Notes under the pieces: generated by a model
Databases searched by the model: none
Told to the model about the DNA's origin: nothing
The model's input: the letters and a program-made list of their open reading frames with translations, nothing else
Part shown: piece after piece, positions 1 to 44,457 of the stretch
How the letters are laid out: each line of letters opens with the position of its first letter
Numbering within the stretch: position 1 is the stretch's first letter
Source: Ruminococcus flavefaciens
GTDB lineage: Bacteria > Bacillota > Clostridia > Oscillospirales > Ruminococcaceae
Reading direction: 5' to 3'
DNA length: 64,000 nt
Assembly (NCBI GenBank): GCA_902760805.1
Contig: CACWHY010000004.1
Span: forward strand, 62,001 to 126,000
Position numbers and translations under genes: made by a program

Positions 1-2731
1 CACCTCTCATGAGGTCTATATCGGAACTGACGAGAATGCCGTCCTTAACGCAACTAAGTCCTCCCCAGAGTTCAAAGGGACGGTCTCACAGCCCCACTTC
101 GACCTGGACGGCAGCTACTCCTCTATCCCCACATACTATTGGCGTGTGGACGAGGTGACTTCCTCCGGTACTGTCAAAGGAGCCGTGTACTCTTTCAAGC
201 TCAACCGCCTTGCCTTCCCCACAGCTGAGGGCTACGGACGCTGGGCAAGAGGAGGACGTGGCGGCTATGTTTATCACGTCACTAACCTGAACGACTCCGG
301 CGAGGGATCTCTGCGCTACGGTCTGGAAACTATGACCGGTGCAAGGACCATCGTGTTCGATGTGGGCGGTATCATCGAGCTGAAAAGCAAGCTGACTGTC
401 CCAAGCACGGGAGGCGATGTTTATGTTGCCGGACAGACTGCTCCCGGCGACGGTATCACACTCACTCAGTGGGGCTTCGGTATGCTGGGCTGTGACGATG
501 TTATCATCAGAGACATCCGTGTCCGCCCCGGCGACAGAGGTCTTTCCGGCGTAAATGATGTTTCTGACGGAATGGGTCTATCCAGCTCAAACCACTGTAT
601 CATCGACCACTGTTCCATGTCCTGGGCAACTGACGAGGGCTTCTCATCACGCTCAGCCTCCAACATCACCTTCCAGTGGAACATCATCGGCGAGTCGCTC
701 CACGACTCTATCCACTACAACGCTGAAGACCGCACCAAGACCGAAACTCACGCCTTCGCAGGATCTATAAGCGGAAACGTGGGCAGCTTCCACCATAACC
801 TCCTTATCGACTGCACAGGAAGAAACTGGTCTCTGGCAGGCGGTATGGAGCAGGACGCTAAGACCTACGGCGGCGCTGTTGACATCCGCAATAACGTGGT
901 CTACAACTGGCGTGACAGAACTACTGACGGAGGCGTGCGCAGGCTGAACTTCGTCAACAACTACTACAAGGCAGGCGCTGTGTCCAACACCTCCCTTCAC
1001 GTTGTACAGATCGACGGCAATGAGCTTGGCACCTACGACTGCCAGAAGATGTATGTTTCCGGAAATATCATGACCGATACCTCAGGAAATCAGATACTGA
1101 AGGCCTCCGATGACGCTTGGAGCAAGGGCAAGGCTAAGGCTAATCCCAAGCTGGGAAGCTCCAACAGCGATGTTATGCTGACCTCACCGTTCTGTGAGTC
1201 CTACGTTGAGACTGACTCTGCTGAAAATGCTTACAAGAGGGTCATCGACAATACCTCCGGCGCCGGCGCAAACGTGCCTGCTCTGGACTATATCGACTCA
1301 CGCTATCACAATGAAGTTACAAAGGGCAGCTACACCTACAAGGGCTCCAAGCAGGGGCTCCAAGGCATAATCGACAGCCAGAAGGACTGCGGCGGCTACC
1401 CTAACTCAAGCAATTTCAAGGGCGGAACTGCCCCTGTTGACACCGACCGTGATGGTATGCCGGACGCTTGGGAGACCCTCCACGGCTTAGATCCCGGCAA
1501 CGGCTCTGACGGAGCTATCGTTTCCCTTTCTGCTGACGACTACACCAACCTGGAAATGTACCTTAATGAGCTGGCTGGCGACCCTGTGGAATTCAACGAC
1601 GCTCCTGCCCGCTCTGCATTCGTTAGCTTCGAGGCTGAGGACTACGATTCCCAGTCCGGCACCAAAAACGAGGACGGCGAGGGCGAGACTCATGTGGCTT
1701 ACATCGAAAACGGCGACTACATCGCTTTCCGCAATGTGGATCTTGAAAGCGGCGCAAAGTCCTTTACCGCTAAGGTCACAGGAAATGCCTGCTATATCGA
1801 CCTGTACATCGACTCTATCGGCGAAACACCGGCTGCGACCGTTGCTTTTGACGGAAGCGGCAGCTGGGACCGTTGGCAGGAGATCTCCGCAAACATTGCC
1901 CCGATCTCAGGCAAGCACACTCTCTACGTTGTTTTCCGTGGAGGCGAGGGCTATCTGATGAACATTGACAGCTTTGTGTTCGGAAGAGACTATGTTCAGT
2001 TGAACGGAAAGAAGCTGACAGGGGTCTCAGTGGACGAGGGAGCGCTCCCCTACGGCTGGCGTATCGCTGAAAATTCCGCTGTTGGCTCCCCTGTTTTCGG
2101 TGACAGAGACTTCACCTTCACGGCTCTTCCTGACTGCCTGTTAGGTGCTGAGCAGCTCATCACAGCCTGCTCCGCCAAGGCCTTCACCGGCAACGCTGCC
2201 TCATTTACTGCCGGGGAGAATCTGACACTGTACATCGCTCTTGACAGCCGAATGACGAAGCTCCCTGACTGGCTGGCTGCTTATGAGAAGACCGGCGAAA
2301 CGGCTCAAACCAGCAACAACGTAATCTTTGAGCTGTACAAGCTGGACATCCCTCAGGGCGAAACTGTCACTATCGGCGGAAATGAAGAGTCCTACAGCGT
2401 GGTGAACTACACGGTATTCGCTGCGGACAAAGCTGCTGCTGTGACCACTACTGTTCCTGAAACTACAGCTCCTCCGGTAACTACTGCCACCGAGCCTGAC
2501 GCTCCCGCAGGACTTATCGGAGATGCTAACGACAACGGCACAGTTGATCTGTCGGACGCTGTTGCTATATTGCAGTACGTTGCTCTTCCGGCAAAATACG
2601 GCCTTTCTGAACAGGGCAAGATCAACGCTGACTGCTATGCTCCCGGTGACGGCATCACCGGAATGGATGCACTGGCGATCCAGATGCTGGACGCTGAGGT
2701 CGTGAAAAAACTGCCCGTTATCCCAGAATAA
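1..2731 (+). CDS. Cellulosomal pectate lyase (PL1-like) with CBM6-like module and type I dockerin, 5'-truncated by window
   Basis: The frame is open from base 2, so the true start lies before the window. Order of modules: an FN3-like piece (motif YYWRVDEV), a parallel beta-helix pectate lyase domain (GYGRWARGG, VYHVTNLNDSGEGSLR, VIIRDIRVRPGD, CIIDHCSMSW), a CBM6/35-like carbohydrate-binding domain (FEAEDYDSQSG ... YIENGDYIAF), a Thr/Pro-rich linker and a C-terminal dockerin. The dockerin has two Ca-binding repeats beginning GDANDNGTVDLSDA and ending GDGITGMDALAIQ. The enzyme would be secreted, cleave polygalacturonate by beta-elimination, and plug into a cohesin scaffold. The PL family number is inferred from motifs; the catalytic residues were not mapped. 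Confidence 0.88.
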   Translation, partial: TSHEVYIGTDENAVLNATKSSPEFKGTVSQPHFDLDGSYSSIPTYYWRVDEVTSSGTVKGAVYSFKLNRLAFPTAEGYGRWARGGRGGYVYHVTNLNDSGEGSLRYGLETMTGARTIVFDVGGIIELKSKLTVPSTGGDVYVAGQTAPGDGITLTQWGFGMLGCDDVIIRDIRVRPGDRGLSGVNDVSDGMGLSSSNHCIIDHCSMSWATDEGFSSRSASNITFQWNIIGESLHDSIHYNAEDRTKTETHAFAGSISGNVGSFHHNLLIDCTGRNWSLAGGMEQDAKTYGGAVDIRNNVVYNWRDRTTDGGVRRLNFVNNYYKAGAVSNTSLHVVQIDGNELGTYDCQKMYVSGNIMTDTSGNQILKASDDAWSKGKAKANPKLGSSNSDVMLTSPFCESYVETDSAENAYKRVIDNTSGAGANVPALDYIDSRYHNEVTKGSYTYKGSKQGLQGIIDSQKDCGGYPNSSNFKGGTAPVDTDRDGMPDAWETLHGLDPGNGSDGAIVSLSADDYTNLEMYLNELAGDPVEFNDAPARSAFVSFEAEDYDSQSGTKNEDGEGETHVAYIENGDYIAFRNVDLESGAKSFTAKVTGNACYIDLYIDSIGETPAATVAFDGSGSWDRWQEISANIAPISGKHTLYVVFRGGEGYLMNIDSFVFGRDYVQLNGKKLTGVSVDEGALPYGWRIAENSAVGSPVFGDRDFTFTALPDCLLGAEQLITACSAKAFTGNAASFTAGENLTLYIALDSRMTKLPDWLAAYEKTGETAQTSNNVIFELYKLDIPQGETVTIGGNEESYSVVNYTVFAADKAAAVTTTVPETTAPPVTTATEPDAPAGLIGDANDNGTVDLSDAVAILQYVALPAKYGLSEQGKINADCYAPGDGITGMDALAIQMLDAEVVKKLPVIPE

Positions 2732-39072: not shown

Positions 39073-39636
39073 ATGACTAACATGAAATACAACGGTTACA
39101 CAAAGGGCGTGCTGCTGATCGTAGCCGGCCTGCTGATCGCATTCTTTCCGGGACTTATCTCCGGGATCTTCTACACGATCGGAGGCATAATACTGGCCTT
39201 CAGCATAGTTTCTCTCATCGCCGGGATCGGTGCCTTTGGCGGAAAGATCCTTGGCGGCGGGAGCATAGCGGGCATAATCATCGGGATCGTGATCATCTCT
39301 CTGCCCTCTCTGGTACACATCGGTATACCGCTCATCGCCGGAGTAGTCTTCGCTTCCACCGGTCTGGAAAGGCTTTTCACTGCGATCCAGGCCAAGAAGC
39401 TGGGCAAGAACTGGATCATCAGCCTTGTGGCTGCGATCGTTCTCCTGCTGATCGGCGGTACCTTGATGTTCCACCCGGTGAAGACCGGCACTGCCGCAAG
39501 GATCCTGCTTGGTGCTGCTCTGGTGGGCGTGGGAGTGTTCAACAGCTTCGTTGACTCAAAGAACTCCTCTGATACCGGAGGGATCATCGACGTGGACAGC
39601 TACACCGTGAAAGATGACACAAAATACCTGAAATAA
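39073..39636 (+). CDS. DUF308/HdeD-like membrane protein
   Basis: 187 residues, AGGAGG before the ATG, six predicted membrane helices in three pairs rich in Gly and Ile (ILLIVAGLLIAFFPGLISGI-type start). Matches the small HdeD/DUF308 family, associated with acid stress in enteric bacteria but of unknown function here. It starts 12 nt after the transglutaminase gene, so it is probably the last gene of that operon, before a strong terminator. Confidence 0.75.
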   Translation: MTNMKYNGYTKGVLLIVAGLLIAFFPGLISGIFYTIGGIILAFSIVSLIAGIGAFGGKILGGGSIAGIIIGIVIISLPSLVHIGIPLIAGVVFASTGLERLFTAIQAKKLGKNWIISLVAAIVLLLIGGTLMFHPVKTGTAARILLGAALVGVGVFNSFVDSKNSSDTGGIIDVDSYTVKDDTKYLK

Positions 39637-39640
39637 CGCA

Positions 39641-39672
39641 AAAAACTGCCGGAGATCTCCGGCAGTTTTCTT
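39641..39672. terminator. Bidirectional terminator
   Basis: A perfect 22-bp palindrome, ACTGCCGGAGA followed by TCTCCGGCAGT, with A run left and T-rich right, between convergent genes. Confidence 0.9.
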
Positions 39673-40435
39673 ATATGTTCATGGCGGCCATTGCATTGAT
39701 GTAGTCAAGATTTGGAACGAAGACTGAACTGCTGCGGCTGCTCTCCATGACCTTTTCACCGTTTTTGTAGGCCAGAACTCTGGCAAGTGGCAGATCCTCC
39801 CATTCCTCGCTGTCAAGGGGCTGAGTTGAGAAGATGTAGCCATCGGGAAGCTGCTTTGCATAGAGAGTGCTCTTCATATTCTTGTGGACATACAGCAGCT
39901 CTCCGTCGAAGATGATCAGGTTGAGCTTGTTTCTGGGAGAAAGCTCTGCGGTAAGATCCTCGATCAGCCGAAAGCGCTGCTCCGGCGAAAGATCACCAGT
40001 GCGCTGGGATCCTCTGACTTTATCCATAAGGTACATGAAGACCCGCTCGGAGTCGGTGTCGCCGGATTGGGTATTCAGATAGCTCATGAGCTGTCTTCCG
40101 GAATATATCGTGCCGTTGTGGATCATGGTCCAGCGCCGTCCAACGGCGTCAAAGCCTGTGAATGGGTGGCAGTTATCATGCTTCACGGCGCCCACTGTTG
40201 CCAGCCTGATATGAGCAAGTGCAGTGGTCTGGGGAGGAGTCTCCTCCACCACCTGAGAATTTATACGGCTGCCGGTAGCTCTCACCGGCTCACGAATGAT
40301 CTCTGTCAGTCCGTCAGCGCTGCGCCGCATCAGTCCCCAGCCGTGGGGGTGGCGGACACTGTGGCTGTAGAATTTCCGAAGATGATCCCGGATGTCTGTC
40401 TCCCGGGAAAATGAAGCTCCGAAAAGCTCACACAT
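39671..40435 (-). CDS. Class II glutamine amidotransferase (YafJ/EgtC-like)
   Basis: 254 residues from the ATG at 40435, which places the nucleophile Cys at position 2 (MCELFGASF). Other N-terminal-nucleophile motifs: HPHGWGLM, AHIRLATVGAVKHDNCHPF, MIHNGTIY and GDTDSERVF. The whole protein is one glutaminase domain without a synthetase partner domain, as in YafJ and in EgtC, which hydrolyses a gamma-glutamyl bond in ergothioneine synthesis. Its start overlaps the end of a gamma-glutamate-cysteine ligase gene by 8 bp, so a gamma-glutamyl substrate is plausible. This is the last gene of the three-gene operon. Confidence 0.85.
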   Translation of the reverse strand: MCELFGASFSRETDIRDHLRKFYSHSVRHPHGWGLMRRSADGLTEIIREPVRATGSRINSQVVEETPPQTTALAHIRLATVGAVKHDNCHPFTGFDAVGRRWTMIHNGTIYSGRQLMSYLNTQSGDTDSERVFMYLMDKVRGSQRTGDLSPEQRFRLIEDLTAELSPRNKLNLIIFDGELLYVHKNMKSTLYAKQLPDGYIFSTQPLDSEEWEDLPLARVLAYKNGEKVMESSRSSSVFVPNLDYINAMAAMNI

Positions 40436-41639
40436 TTGTCTCACATCCTGTCTTTGTATATAAGTCGTTCCCTAGGCGCTCCGCCGCCTCCTTTACCAGC
40501 TGGCAGGGGCGTTTGCCAAGGAGCTTCTGCCGCTGCATCTCCACAACTGCAAGAGCCTCCTCATCCTGCGAAAAATAGGCAGAGATCTTTCCGAGGAGGT
40601 TTAGTGCTGTTTCCTTGGCAGGGGCTCCGCTGATCATCATTTTCTCAAGGTCGAACATGGCTGCCGCCTGATGATCTTCGATTGCCTGGCGCTGAAGTGC
40701 CGGAGTGAGATCAAAGTCCTCCAAGCTAAGCAGGTACAGTATCAGCAGATGAGCGAAACTCAGATCCTCCTCCGAGATCCCCAGGGGATAACGAGGATCC
40801 AGGTCGAACATTCGCAGCTCGATGTGGTCGATGCCGTTTCGTAAAAGGCCGTCCAGAGTGTTCTCACCACGGGGCTTCAGCCGCACGGGAAGGTAGAGCT
40901 CGCTGGCAGAAAAGAGTGCGCCCTTCTCGATATATCGCCGAATGCTGGCTGTGTAGGCTCTCAGGGAGGAGTAGTCCAGCACAGGCACGAAATGATTCCA
41001 GTAGCCACGGCTGCTGTTGCGGAGAGAGGCCTCTCCTGTGAAGACCGCACCGCTGCCGTGATCCTCCAGCATGGATCTGTCATAAACAGGGCTGGCGGCA
41101 GTCAGCAGCACGATCAGCCAGCTGTACCGCATGATCTGCTTTTTCAGCCGCAGATAGAGACTGTCCCGAAAGTCGGAGAGTTCCTCCTCAGTGCCGCTCT
41201 CACGGTAAAGGCGCTCCAACAGCTGAGGGCTGAGGGAGTAGTTGAAATGGATCCCGGAATAGAGCATGAGCCGCTTGCCGTAGCGCTGCTGGAGCTTCTC
41301 ACGGTAGCTGCGCTTTGAGGACTGATCTCCCGAAAAATCGGCGATAATGATGTCGTCCTCTGTCTCAAAATGGGGCGGATCACTGCAAAGCCAGATCTGC
41401 TCCCCCAGCTTTGAAAGCTCCTGCCGGGCAAGCCTGTCAAGCTCCGCCAAGGACTGGATCACCTCATGGACGCTTCCGAAGACCGGCGTTATGATCTCCA
41501 GCTGGTTTTCGCAGAAATCTCTGGTCAGGCGCTCGTCATCAAAGGGATGAGGAGTATTCGCCATGCGGCCGCTGCCGTCAACACGAAGGGTCTCACGCTC
41601 GAGGCCGAAGCCTCCGCTAAAAAGAATAGCATCTCTCAT
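40428..41639 (-). CDS. Glutamate-cysteine ligase, GshA/GshF-N-terminal type
   Basis: 403 residues from the ATG at 41639 (GAGG 7 nt upstream); a GTG two codons earlier is possible. The N-terminus GGFGLERETLRVDGSGRMANTPHPF and DFCENQLEIITPVF closely follow E. coli GshA and the first domain of GshF. No ATP-grasp domain follows, so it is not the two-function GshF. The expected product is gamma-glutamylcysteine, or another gamma-glutamyl amide. No gshB is visible in the window. It starts 9 nt after a second, different ligase gene. Confidence 0.85.
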   Translation of the reverse strand: MRDAILFSGGFGLERETLRVDGSGRMANTPHPFDDERLTRDFCENQLEIITPVFGSVHEVIQSLAELDRLARQELSKLGEQIWLCSDPPHFETEDDIIIADFSGDQSSKRSYREKLQQRYGKRLMLYSGIHFNYSLSPQLLERLYRESGTEEELSDFRDSLYLRLKKQIMRYSWLIVLLTAASPVYDRSMLEDHGSGAVFTGEASLRNSSRGYWNHFVPVLDYSSLRAYTASIRRYIEKGALFSASELYLPVRLKPRGENTLDGLLRNGIDHIELRMFDLDPRYPLGISEEDLSFAHLLILYLLSLEDFDLTPALQRQAIEDHQAAAMFDLEKMMISGAPAKETALNLLGKISAYFSQDEEALAVVEMQRQKLLGKRPCQLVKEAAERLGNDLYTKTGCETNV

Positions 41640-41648
41640 AGGCACACC

Positions 41649-43031
41649 TCAGATCTGGGCATAGCGGAGAATGAAATCCTCCATGGAAGTGCCGGCCTCG
41701 ACACCCTCGACCATTTCCTTGGCAGGGTTAGTCAGATGCTGGGCACGGTGGAAAAGTGTCTGAACAAAGATCTCCTCGCCCTTTCCACGCTTGGAAAGTC
41801 CCTCCGCCGCAAGGGAAACTATTTTGGTGAGCTGCTGAGAAAGCTGCTGTTTATCCACAAAAGTCGGCAGAGATCTCCGGGAGAACTCCCTTTGCAGCTC
41901 AGTGGCGCTGTAGCCGTGACTGTAGATCACATCGTCGTTCTCAAGGAGTTCCTTCAGCGCAGGGATATTCTCCAAAAGCCCGATGTGGAAGGCCGCAACG
42001 GTCATGCTGTCCTTGATCGGCTGGCAGCAGGAGCTGCGGAATTCGATAGTTCCACGGAAGGTCAGATCCTCGAACTTGAACGTGCGCAGGTACTCAAGAT
42101 CCTCCAATACCGGCGAGAATGTCACCTGCTTATACTCGTTTCCGTCAAAATACTCCCCTGTTATGGCCTTTTTGTCGAAAAACTCTATCACGGGGATCGG
42201 TGTGAAGTCGATGTATTTGCCGTCACGAACTGTGCAGTAGATGCTCTGGGTCTTGATATAGCGCAAAAGGTCGTCTGTGTCACGGAGCTTGTACTCGAAC
42301 ATTCCCACGTTGTGGGGGTTGTAGCCCTGCATACTGCGCTCCCAGAGCATATTTCTGGCGCAGAGGAGATCCGGGAACTCGGGCAGATAGGAGTTGGCAA
42401 AAAGCAGCGATTTATAGGGCTCCAGCAGGCCAAAAACGTTGATCACGTCGATCAGCTCGTCATGACAGACGTCGATCTGGACCTGAGAAGCACTGGTAAA
42501 GGTACCGAAATCCGGCCTGTCGTGAAAGATCACCGGCGCTTCGGTGTGAGATCTGTAGGAGTGAAGGTAGTGATAGAGCATACGGTAGCGCTCATTGGGA
42601 ACAGGCTGGTTGCGGTTGATGTTGAAATACGGATTGATCCCCATTCCAGTCAGGGTATAGCCATATTCTGCGAAAAATCGGTTGATAAATCGGTAATAGC
42701 TCTCAAAGCGCTCCTTCAGGACGAAAAGGTCGCTGCCCTTCCCCATGGAGAGCTCGAGATTTGAGTAAGAACAATCGAAGGATAGGTCATCGCCGGTAAC
42801 GGGGTCGGCCATGGAATTTGGCTGGCCGTTGGAGTCTATGCTGACCGGCTGAAAGCCAAAGTGCTCACGAAAAGCAGCCGCCATTTCAAAGACCACATTT
42901 TCCTCGACAGGAGCCTTTGCCAAATTGACCACCGGCATCTCGATCTCGATGCCTATCCGTCTGGGCCGCGGCTCAAGCGTGCGTGAAATATACTTATTAT
43001 AAATAGCTCTGTCAATAGTCTCCTGTCTCAT
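41649..43031 (-). CDS. Glutamate-cysteine ligase family enzyme, GCS2/EgtA-like type
   Basis: 460 residues. GIEIEMPVVNLAKAP near residue 27 gives the acidic ATP/metal-binding strand; NLELSMGKG, FTSASQVQIDVCHDEL and SLLFANSYLPE parallel the plant/proteobacterial (GCS2) group, whose equivalent reads TCTVQVNLDF...ALFANSP; GTIEFRSSCCQPI follows. This type also includes EgtA of ergothioneine synthesis. It is first of three coupled genes with its own consensus promoter. The substrate cannot be read from the sequence; a tandem with the GshA-type enzyme suggests two separate ligation steps. Confidence 0.82.
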   Translation of the reverse strand: MRQETIDRAIYNKYISRTLEPRPRRIGIEIEMPVVNLAKAPVEENVVFEMAAAFREHFGFQPVSIDSNGQPNSMADPVTGDDLSFDCSYSNLELSMGKGSDLFVLKERFESYYRFINRFFAEYGYTLTGMGINPYFNINRNQPVPNERYRMLYHYLHSYRSHTEAPVIFHDRPDFGTFTSASQVQIDVCHDELIDVINVFGLLEPYKSLLFANSYLPEFPDLLCARNMLWERSMQGYNPHNVGMFEYKLRDTDDLLRYIKTQSIYCTVRDGKYIDFTPIPVIEFFDKKAITGEYFDGNEYKQVTFSPVLEDLEYLRTFKFEDLTFRGTIEFRSSCCQPIKDSMTVAAFHIGLLENIPALKELLENDDVIYSHGYSATELQREFSRRSLPTFVDKQQLSQQLTKIVSLAAEGLSKRGKGEEIFVQTLFHRAQHLTNPAKEMVEGVEAGTSMEDFILRYAQI

Positions 43032-43080
43032 AAGATCACCCTTTCCTATTTTGATTTTACCTATAGTTTTACTATGCTTT

Positions 43081-43109
43081 ATTATATACTATTTTTGTAG
43101 GTTTGTCAA
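43081..43109 (-). promoter_or_regulatory. Promoter of the gamma-glutamyl ligase operon
   Basis: On minus TTGACA (43109-43104) and TATAAT (43086-43081) are exactly 17 bp apart. Just downstream ATAGT-AAA-ACTAT forms a small palindrome (about 43062-43074), an operator candidate. Confidence 0.8.
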
Positions 43110-43411
43110 TAGGTTTTTGAAAATATTCCTCCTCTCGCCCCTTATATACTATTATAATAGTACAGGCATTTTGACGGTGTTCTTGATGAAAAAAATTACG
43201 AATTGTAATCAGTCAGCCCAACCTATTTGGCAAGTAAATATTACGTTCTGTATTAAATTTCTTGCCCATTTTCCATGTCTGAAATTGTCCAAAAGGATCA
43301 TTTCCCGAAACACCATGTATAGAAATCCGTGCGATTTACGCTTTGTAATGACATCAATTTGTACTTTATGTAATAGAACTGTAATTTTTAGCTGCTATTT
43401 GTTTTGATTTG
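43110..43411. other. AT-rich intergenic region without a gene
   Basis: About 300 bases markedly richer in A+T than the surroundings. A 16-bp perfect palindrome, TACTATTATAATAGTA, lies at 43147-43162. A 118-codon frame on plus (43051-43407) has no SD, odd composition and no family resemblance, and is not called. Confidence 0.6.
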
Positions 43412-43455
43412 TTCCTCAGCAGTTCATTTACAGTTCATATTCTATTCATTTAATA
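43412..43455 (+). promoter_or_regulatory. PHO-box-like array of four 11-bp direct repeats
   Basis: TTCCT at 43412 and TTCAT at 43423, 43434 and 43445 recur every 11 bp; three of the four are preceded by G (GTTCA-type). This spacing is typical of PhoB/PhoP-type response-regulator sites. TAATAT at 43471 would place the last repeat over a -35 position. Confidence 0.55.
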
Positions 43456-43529
43456 TGTGCCATTTTAACCTAATATGAGGAATATGAGGGAAAGATCTTG
43501 GTGCAAAAATGGAAAAAGTCTCAAAACCA

Positions 43530-43558
43530 TTGCCATTTTCTGCCGAATATGTTATGAT
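43530..43558 (+). promoter_or_regulatory. Promoter of the SleB-like hydrolase gene
   Basis: TTGCCA (43530-43535) and TATGAT (43553-43558), spaced 17 bp. Confidence 0.6.
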
Positions 43559-43617
43559 TATCACAGTCCGAAATGGACTATCAATTTACGAATGCTTTTC
43601 GAGGAAAGGATGAGTTG

Positions 43618-44457
43618 ATGAGAAAAGCTAAAGTTGCAGCGATAGTCTTAGGAAGCGTTTCTTCTTGCTTATTTGGCGGACTGTTCGCAGTTTATGCGAC
43701 AGCTCCAGTCGTTACTTCTGTAACTCCTAAGGATACCGCACAGATTCAGGACGTTGAGATCGAAGAACTGGCAAATGCAGCTGCAGTAACTCCTATCAGA
43801 ACCACAGCCGTTACCACAAGCAAAGCAACTACAAAGGCAGCATCCACTACGACTGCCGTTACTACTACCACTACTGTTGTTGAGCAGCCCACAGAAGCTC
43901 CAAGCGAGGCTTCCACTGAGGCCGCTACAGAAGCTGCTACTCAGGCAGCTACCGATGCCCCCTATGAAGAATATACGGCTTATGTTCCTGAGGAGCCTGA
44001 GGTTGTCTATTATGAAGAGCCCCTCTACCAGGAAGAGGTTGTTTATCAGGAAGCTACAGAAGAGAACACAGAGGCTACAGAGACCTATACTGAGGCTCCT
44101 GTAGATACTACAAGTGCTTCTTCCCTTCCGATCAGTGACAGCGAATACATTATCCTCTGCAATGCTGTTGGCCACGAGGCCGGATGCAGCTGGATCAGTG
44201 AATTCGACAAGGCTAAGGTCGTTGAAGTTATCATGAACAGAGTTTACAGCCCCCTGTATCCCAACAGCATTTATGAGGTACTTACTCAGAAAAATCAGTT
44301 TGAGGGATCCAAGAGCTACGTTGACCTTGGTACTTATGCAAGCTACGTTACAGACAGTGTAAAGGCCGCAGTTGACCTTTACTTCTCAGATCCCGCCTCC
44401 TTCCAGCATGGTTACTTCAGCTTCTATGGAGACGGATACCAGAACTACTTCGTTTGA
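43618..44457 (+). CDS. Secreted SleB-family cell-wall hydrolase with Thr-rich stalk
   Basis: 279 residues from the ATG at 43618 (AAGGA upstream), giving a normal signal peptide (KAKVAAIVLGSVSSCLFGGLFAV). A long low-complexity stalk (residues ~55-170) is rich in Thr, then Glu/Ala (TEAPSEASTEAATEAATQ) and Tyr/Glu/Pro. The C-terminal ~110 residues are the Hydrolase_2 (SleB) domain: ILCNAVGHEAG with the catalytic Glu near 187, VVEVIMNRVYSPLYPNSIYEVLTQKNQF. SleB-like enzymes cleave peptidoglycan, in spores or at the surface. The array upstream suggests phosphate-linked control. Confidence 0.85.
   Translation: MRKAKVAAIVLGSVSSCLFGGLFAVYATAPVVTSVTPKDTAQIQDVEIEELANAAAVTPIRTTAVTTSKATTKAASTTTAVTTTTTVVEQPTEAPSEASTEAATEAATQAATDAPYEEYTAYVPEEPEVVYYEEPLYQEEVVYQEATEENTEATETYTEAPVDTTSASSLPISDSEYIILCNAVGHEAGCSWISEFDKAKVVEVIMNRVYSPLYPNSIYEVLTQKNQFEGSKSYVDLGTYASYVTDSVKAAVDLYFSDPASFQHGYFSFYGDGYQNYFV

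Follow-up and report, generated by a model that had tools for sequence, protein, structure and literature searches.

What does a bacterium gain from making two dissimilar glutamate-cysteine-ligase-type enzymes and an amidohydrolase from one operon? The question is raised by three tightly packed minus-strand genes, here called A, B and C, at positions 43031 to 39671 of a 64,000-nucleotide stretch of Ruminococcus flavefaciens DNA (hereafter the window; positions 62001-126000 of contig C4 in the genome that we label G000). An earlier sequence-only reading of this DNA had seen three packed genes under a consensus promoter and suggested a gamma-glutamyl protect-and-release pathway or a new low-molecular-weight thiol route. 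Our analysis confirms the operon, in which A and B lie 9 bp apart and B and C overlap by 8 bp behind a 12/12 consensus promoter, and partly supports the interpretation. We consider it modestly probable that the operon is an on/off switch by which cysteine, or a closely related sulfur amino acid, is gamma-glutamylated and freed again; such reversible gamma-glutamylation is a simpler reading than a new thiol route and is the best that we can offer. The operon is a new variant on known chemistry, and no description of it was found in the literature searched, the coverage of which lacks most subscription journals.

Gene B (40428-41639, minus strand; 403 amino acids) encodes a GshA-type ligase, to which the glutamate-cysteine ligase domain of GshAB is the nearest match. 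Its product matches Glu_cys_ligase PF04262 at 208.9 bits (curated cut-off, 27) and the bifunctional GshAB model NF002688 at 294 bits, which is below the cut-off of 425 and covers the glutamate-cysteine ligase part only; the C-terminal ATP-grasp glutathione synthetase domain of GshAB is absent, as the sequence-only reading had said. An AlphaFold2 model of B (predicted local distance difference test score [pLDDT], 95.0) matched structure 3ln7 in Foldseek with a TMq of 0.84. Seventeen positions of Escherichia coli GshA were checked in B, including 241, 300 and 304, which were our own presumptive choices, and 15 were kept (14 in 48/48 rows and Phe61 in 47/48). In E. coli numbering, these include the metal-site residues E27, E29, D60, E67, H150 and E328 (48/48), the cysteine-site residues F61 (47/48), Y131 and L135 (48/48), and R132, R235 and R330 (48/48). 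The metal and cysteine sites are those named in PMC12817896, whose numbers we read as E. coli numbering; R330, R235, Y131 and R132 are among the residues mutated in PMC5741869, where R330A had no activity. The active site of B is predicted to be intact, and because its cysteine site is kept, gamma-Glu-Cys is the best guess for its product. B resembles GshAB (GshF) and GshA in its ligase domain but differs from them in lacking ATP-grasp and in forming a clade of its own: in a midpoint-rooted tree, into which the B of the window and one GshA gene were each entered twice, the 55 B rows separated from 12 GshAB/GshA rows with a support of 0.976. We favor a start for B at ATG 41639 over a longer option at GTG 41645, because GAGGTG precedes the ATG. 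On contig C42 of another genome (G025; locus L197), B reads as two pieces, which may mean that the system is being lost from some genomes.

Gene A (41649-43031, minus strand; 460 amino acids) encodes a divergent ligase. Its product scores 19.4 bits against GCS2 PF04107, just short of the cut-off of 21, and 41.4 bits against the plant ligase model TIGR01436 (cut-off, 463). An AlphaFold2 model (pLDDT, 88.7) found plant glutamate-cysteine ligase 2gwc in Foldseek (E value, 1.7e-14; TMq, 0.74), and on the basis of this model A has a plant/GCS2 ligase fold. E29, E31, E93, R226, W230, E330 and R332 are invariant in 48/48 rows. The sequence-only reading had labeled A GCS2/EgtA-like; neither A nor B matched the EgtA model TIGR03444 at E values up to 1. 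Profile comparison of A with B gave no usable similarity, and the two ligases thus apparently come from different superfamily branches. Among named relatives the nearest is a Ruminococcus metagenome genome, the A of which is 88% identical (L001, among the best 80 of 93 loci). A distinct ligase was seen in locus L219 (contig C20 of G170; 91-2685, minus strand), where an 864-amino-acid protein begins with a GCS2 ligase domain (115 bits) and ends in a part with weak similarity to the circularly permuted ATP-grasp family PF14403 (17.7 bits; cut-off, 32); it is possibly, judging by these matches, an unusual GshF-like fusion.

Gene C (39671-40435, minus strand; 254 amino acids, ATG start) encodes a class II N-terminal nucleophile (Ntn) amidohydrolase with Cys2, similar to EgtC, YafJ and Dug3. 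The lone class II domain described earlier is borne out by a match to GATase_4 PF13230 at 105.9 bits (cut-off, 23) and by the invariance in 45/45 rows of C2, R77, H106-N107-G108 and T127-D128-S129-E130, which we take to be the class II catalytic core residues and which leave the predicted active site intact. Against the EgtC model TIGR03442, C scores 57 bits, far under the equivalog cut-off of 218.65. Class II folds commonly act on glutamine, and C might accordingly be an ordinary glutaminase-type amidotransferase that shares the operon through co-regulation only, with the ligases making unrelated gamma-glutamyl amines; we regard this as very improbable in view of the distribution described below, in which strong C matches occur with three kinds of glutamate-cysteine-ligase-type genes.

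Are the three genes kept together elsewhere? We examined 80 A-bearing loci, the best 80 of 93 confirmed; these were picked with A-derived patterns, and the set therefore favors A. By tblastn, A, B and C occur together in 61 of the 80, A and B in 2, A and C in 2, and A only in 15, and some of the incomplete loci stop at a contig edge (e.g., L048, L063, L047 and L059). The 61 complete loci show the order ABC in 56, BCA in 3 and CAB in 2, always on one strand. An ORF (open reading frame) caller, which is crude, gave 54 complete loci rather than 61. In these counts and those that follow, genomes and loci are related by descent and are not independent.

Among 60 relatives (36 of the genus, own genome included), A was found in 12, B in 21 and C in 19, with all carriers within the genus. 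C adjoins B in all 19 C-bearing genus genomes. B and C are both present in 11 of the 12 genus genomes with A, the three genes being contiguous in 7 (in G027 an interval of about 1 kb separates A from B); A is on a separate contig in G007, G021, G031 and G035. B and C occur without A in 8 of the 19 C-bearing genus genomes, some of the eight being incomplete.

To this we can add a class sample of 291 genomes drawn evenly and independently of A, the own genome included; one member, G252, appears identical to the genome of L003. Five of these genomes have a close A, 7 a short B, 10 a strong C and 4 a close D, which is another GCS2 ligase. The thresholds behind "close" and "strong" were set after the score gap had been seen, and below them lie 16 genomes with a distant A, 12 with a GshAB/GshA-type B, 5 with a weak C (41-46 bits) and 23 with a distant D (167-280 bits). 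The 16 distant A relatives (about 164-260 bits) are in genomes that gave no B or C match at an E value of 1e-10, and none nearby (in one of these loci, L129, the ORF caller missed A itself). All five close-A genomes have B and C, the cluster of G310 being split over two contigs. The sequence-only reading had tied its pathway to finding the two ligases together elsewhere, and since the genes do co-occur, that idea stands on this point.

All 10 genomes with strong C have a glutamate-cysteine-ligase-type gene: A and B in five, B alone in one and D in four. B is on a different contig from C in G060. D lies directly before C in G145, G172, G191 and G198, the only genomes with a close D, and scores 42-61 bits against PF04107 in all four. 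A wider set of 398 phylum genomes gave four strong C matches, all in genomes already in the class sample. The two ligases are thus no constant pair, because B-C occurs without A in the genus and D-C without A or B in 4/291 genomes. What recurs, with D as with A and B, is a ligase beside a putative remover of the gamma-glutamyl group, and to that extent the protect-and-release logic is supported. Because strong C is found whichever of these ligases a genome has, its most likely substrate is the type of product that the ligases share. That one amidohydrolase goes with ligases of several types suggests that selection has kept the reversible gamma-glutamyl step as such.

Does the operon belong to a known thiol system? 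The EgtD family (PF10017) was found in none of 11 carrier genomes, the own genome included, while the control was positive in 2/14 genomes; BshC (PF10079) was likewise found in 0/11, own genome included, with a positive control in Bacillus subtilis. The glutathione synthetase domain PF02955 was not found in the own genome, and 9 of the 11 carriers were negative. For the window, EgtB, EgtD, EgtE and gshB had been noted as absent; since PF10017, PF10079 and PF02955 gave no match in the whole own genome either, we do not assign the operon to the synthesis of ergothioneine, bacillithiol or glutathione. We set aside the ergothioneine and bacillithiol routes on the 0/11 counts for PF10017 and PF10079, respectively, and the glutathione route on the absence of a PF02955 match in G000.

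PF02955 does match over the cut-off in two carriers, G317 and G252. In addition, G334 has an ATP-grasp protein (L170, 10550-12130) that is encoded upstream of, and codirectionally with, a LysR regulator, a Cys/Met metabolism pyridoxal phosphate (PLP) enzyme and B; it could extend the product of B. An unlinked ATP-grasp ligase might then carry this product to a glutathione-like tripeptide that C degrades. We think this improbable, given the negative PF02955 results in the own genome and in 9 of the 11 carriers, the separation of GshAB/GshA comparators from the B clade, and a comparison with 1848 ORFs of 127 loci in which the ATP-grasp protein of G334 had no relative. On that last result it was rejected as a partner for B.

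One of the closest known systems is ergothioneine synthesis. According to PMC7278568, which also names cysteine storage among thiol roles, EgtA is the glutamate-cysteine ligase of that pathway, and EgtC, a class II amidohydrolase, takes the gamma-glutamyl group off. The operon shares this combination, so that EgtC offers an earlier example of an amidohydrolase that works alongside such a ligase; it differs in that the EgtD family was found in none of the 11 carriers and in the low TIGR03442 score of C, and D matches the EgtA model TIGR03444 at only 65-75 bits against a cut-off of 370.8. The gamma-glutamyl group might nevertheless serve as a temporary handle in a longer route to a further thiol, with a ligase adding it, an unlinked enzyme modifying the cysteine part and C removing it, as in the EgtA/EgtB/EgtC sequence. 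The resemblance of C to EgtC (57 bits), the presence of GCS2 types among the ligases and the oddity of two ligases in one operon for a plain cycle speak for such a route, which we still hold to be unlikely, as no third enzyme is constantly linked in the 80 loci, the EgtD family was found in 0/11 carriers and C falls so far short of the EgtC cut-off.

A second precedent is in yeast, where Dug2p and Dug3p are reported to be required for gamma-Glu-Met degradation (PMC7617739). Here too, a class II GATase acts on gamma-glutamyl peptides of sulfur amino acids, which is a precedent for the fold of C acting on gamma-glutamyl dipeptides. Dug3 works with Dug2, whereas C is paired with ligases; no Dug2-type peptidase partner was recognized beside C, the rest of the genome not having been searched for one. 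As to the presumed product, the operon has a counterpart in haloarchaea: gamma-Glu-Cys is reportedly a major thiol there. The operon differs in having two ligases and an amidohydrolase.

How might the switch work? B would use ATP to link cysteine to the gamma-carboxylate of glutamate, and the resulting gamma-Glu-Cys would not be carried on to glutathione; C, as a Cys2 Ntn amidohydrolase, would later cleave the glutamate off and free the cysteine. In that case gamma-Glu-Cys would serve to store cysteine in protected form and might also be the thiol buffer of the cell. A, which is optional in the genus, would be a further gamma-glutamyl ligase, from the plant/GCS2 branch, and may use a different acceptor (e.g., homocysteine) or work under different control. 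A possible but distinctly less probable variant is that A and B are ligases of different specificity with C as their common release enzyme. Such a gamma-glutamyl sulfur amino acid economy, comprising gamma-Glu-Cys and a second gamma-glutamyl compound, would replace glutathione and bacillithiol in these anaerobes; alternatively, the three enzymes would make a thiol that has yet to be described.

The genes around the core are consistent with a link to sulfur amino acids in part of the relatives. Sulfur-family ORFs account for 35 of 282 ORFs at 1-2 ORFs from the core and for 8 of 376 at a distance of at least 6 (odds ratio, 6.5; Fisher p, 1e-7, from loci that are not independent). The flanks of the 80 loci include an Rrf2 regulator in 18 loci, SufS in 16, SufB/D in 8, CysK in 7, MetY and MetQ in 5 each, MetK in 4 and LuxS in 3. 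These labels were checked on single representatives: those of CysK, SufS, MetY and Rrf2 pass NCBI cut-offs, and those of LuxS, SufB/D and NlpA/MetQ pass Pfam cut-offs, with the MetQ representative below its NCBI cut-off; MetK, MetI and SufU were labeled by eye. NIL-domain (methionine-type) ATP-binding cassette (ABC) transporters accompany the D-C pairs of G198 and G191, while a CysK-like fragment and a LysR regulator accompany the pair of G172. The neighbors of the lone B of G334 are LysR, an aminotransferase and a PLP enzyme of Cys/Met metabolism.

Several observations weigh against an on/off switch for cysteine. Gln144 of E. coli GshA is replaced by Met in B in 48/48 rows, and Ile146, a listed glutamate-site residue, is F, Y or L, so the substrate of B may have shifted; the Gln144 equivalent is Gln in 9/9 comparator GshAB/GshA loci with a readable motif (of 12 checked, L143, L149 and L150 did not match the motif). 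In the genus, A occurs without B or C in G008, B without a C match in G002 (a fragment) and G004, and none of the three genes in 14 of 36 genomes; in the class sample, G334 has B without C. No sulfur-family ORF lies within two ORFs of the core in 48 of 78 loci, the neighbors in the window itself are non-sulfur genes (a DUF308 protein, a cell-wall hydrolase and FtsH), and the D-C pair of G145 (L173) has no recognized sulfur gene. Finally, an operon that both forms and breaks one bond would run a futile cycle if it were not regulated.

Could the product instead be a cofactor whose conjugates C dismantles? Mycothiol amidase Mca cleaves mycothiol conjugates, and by analogy gamma-Glu-Cys might trap electrophiles, with C acting as an S-conjugate amidase that cleaves the trapped form for export as a Cys conjugate. 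The same ligase-amidohydrolase linkage and the lack of BshC and EgtD in the 11 carriers would fit. So would a glutathione-S-transferase-type protein (PF13410, PF13409) three ORFs from the D-C pair of G145 (L173, 10049-11152), which presumably is similar to glutathionyl-hydroquinone reductase, is present in three copies in a genome without a PF02955 match and may use the thiol made by D. Relatives of this protein were found in 2/79 genomes, G145 and G240 (1/23 carriers and 1/56 others), so that it is not a general partner, and it has no relative among the 1848 ORFs of the 127 loci. Given this distribution, the finding that no family beyond A, B and C occurs in more than 21 of the 80 loci, and the sulfur amino acid genes that do recur as neighbors, we are doubtful of an S-conjugate amidase.

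A constant third gene was not found among the 1231 ORFs of the 80 loci, the largest non-core family being an ABC ATPase (21 loci). A new end-product thiol from the operon is possible but unsupported because no third enzyme recurs, and the new thiol route offered by the sequence-only reading consequently gains no direct support. To our knowledge, little has been described of the low-molecular-weight thiols in strictly anaerobic bacteria of the gut and rumen. The conserved module of ligase and amidohydrolase is a candidate for cysteine storage or thiol buffering in Ruminococcus-type bacteria without detectable glutathione, bacillithiol or ergothioneine genes, and the automatic labels "glutamate--cysteine ligase" and "class II glutamine amidotransferase" would mask the pairing.

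Other neighbors are less regular. Of the 58 loci in which B comes after A, 9 have a gene for a beta-lactamase-fold hydrolase between the two, on the opposite strand (e.g., L004, 1986-2834), and a beta-lactamase-like gene is found anywhere in 12 of the 80 loci; the one example scanned has its best NCBIfam score, 101 bits against a cut-off of 800, with 3-succinylated cholic acid synthase. Since most loci lack this gene, we left it out of the system. A lone ACT-like protein of about 81 amino acids, which scores 26.9 bits against PF13291 (cut-off, 27), is encoded directly upstream of A or B in several genomes of Ruminococcus, as in L022 (9739-9981), L192 (7419-7664) and others; it might be an amino acid sensor. 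Downstream of the D-C pair of G172 (L174, 4119-4867) are a thioredoxin and a JAB-type metallopeptidase, which we take to be reminiscent of sulfur-carrier cysteine synthesis; ThiF/MoeB-like genes and rhodanese are in the flanks of 10 and 3 of the 80 loci, respectively.

A scan for riboswitches and T boxes at gathering thresholds found none in the window, and 20 loci gave tRNAs only. An intrinsic-terminator-like hairpin of 14 pairs with a T run (39640-39671, minus strand) starts at the end of C; terminator-like sites are not above chance, with 3 found against 3.8 expected in shuffles. The sigma-70-type promoter TTGACA-17-TATAAT (43081-43109, minus strand) sits 50-78 bp upstream of A and is the best of nine promoter-like sites in 39400-43700, where shuffles gave an expectation of 4.1. 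A second near-consensus promoter (11/12) was seen at 43015-42987, just within the 5' part of gene A.

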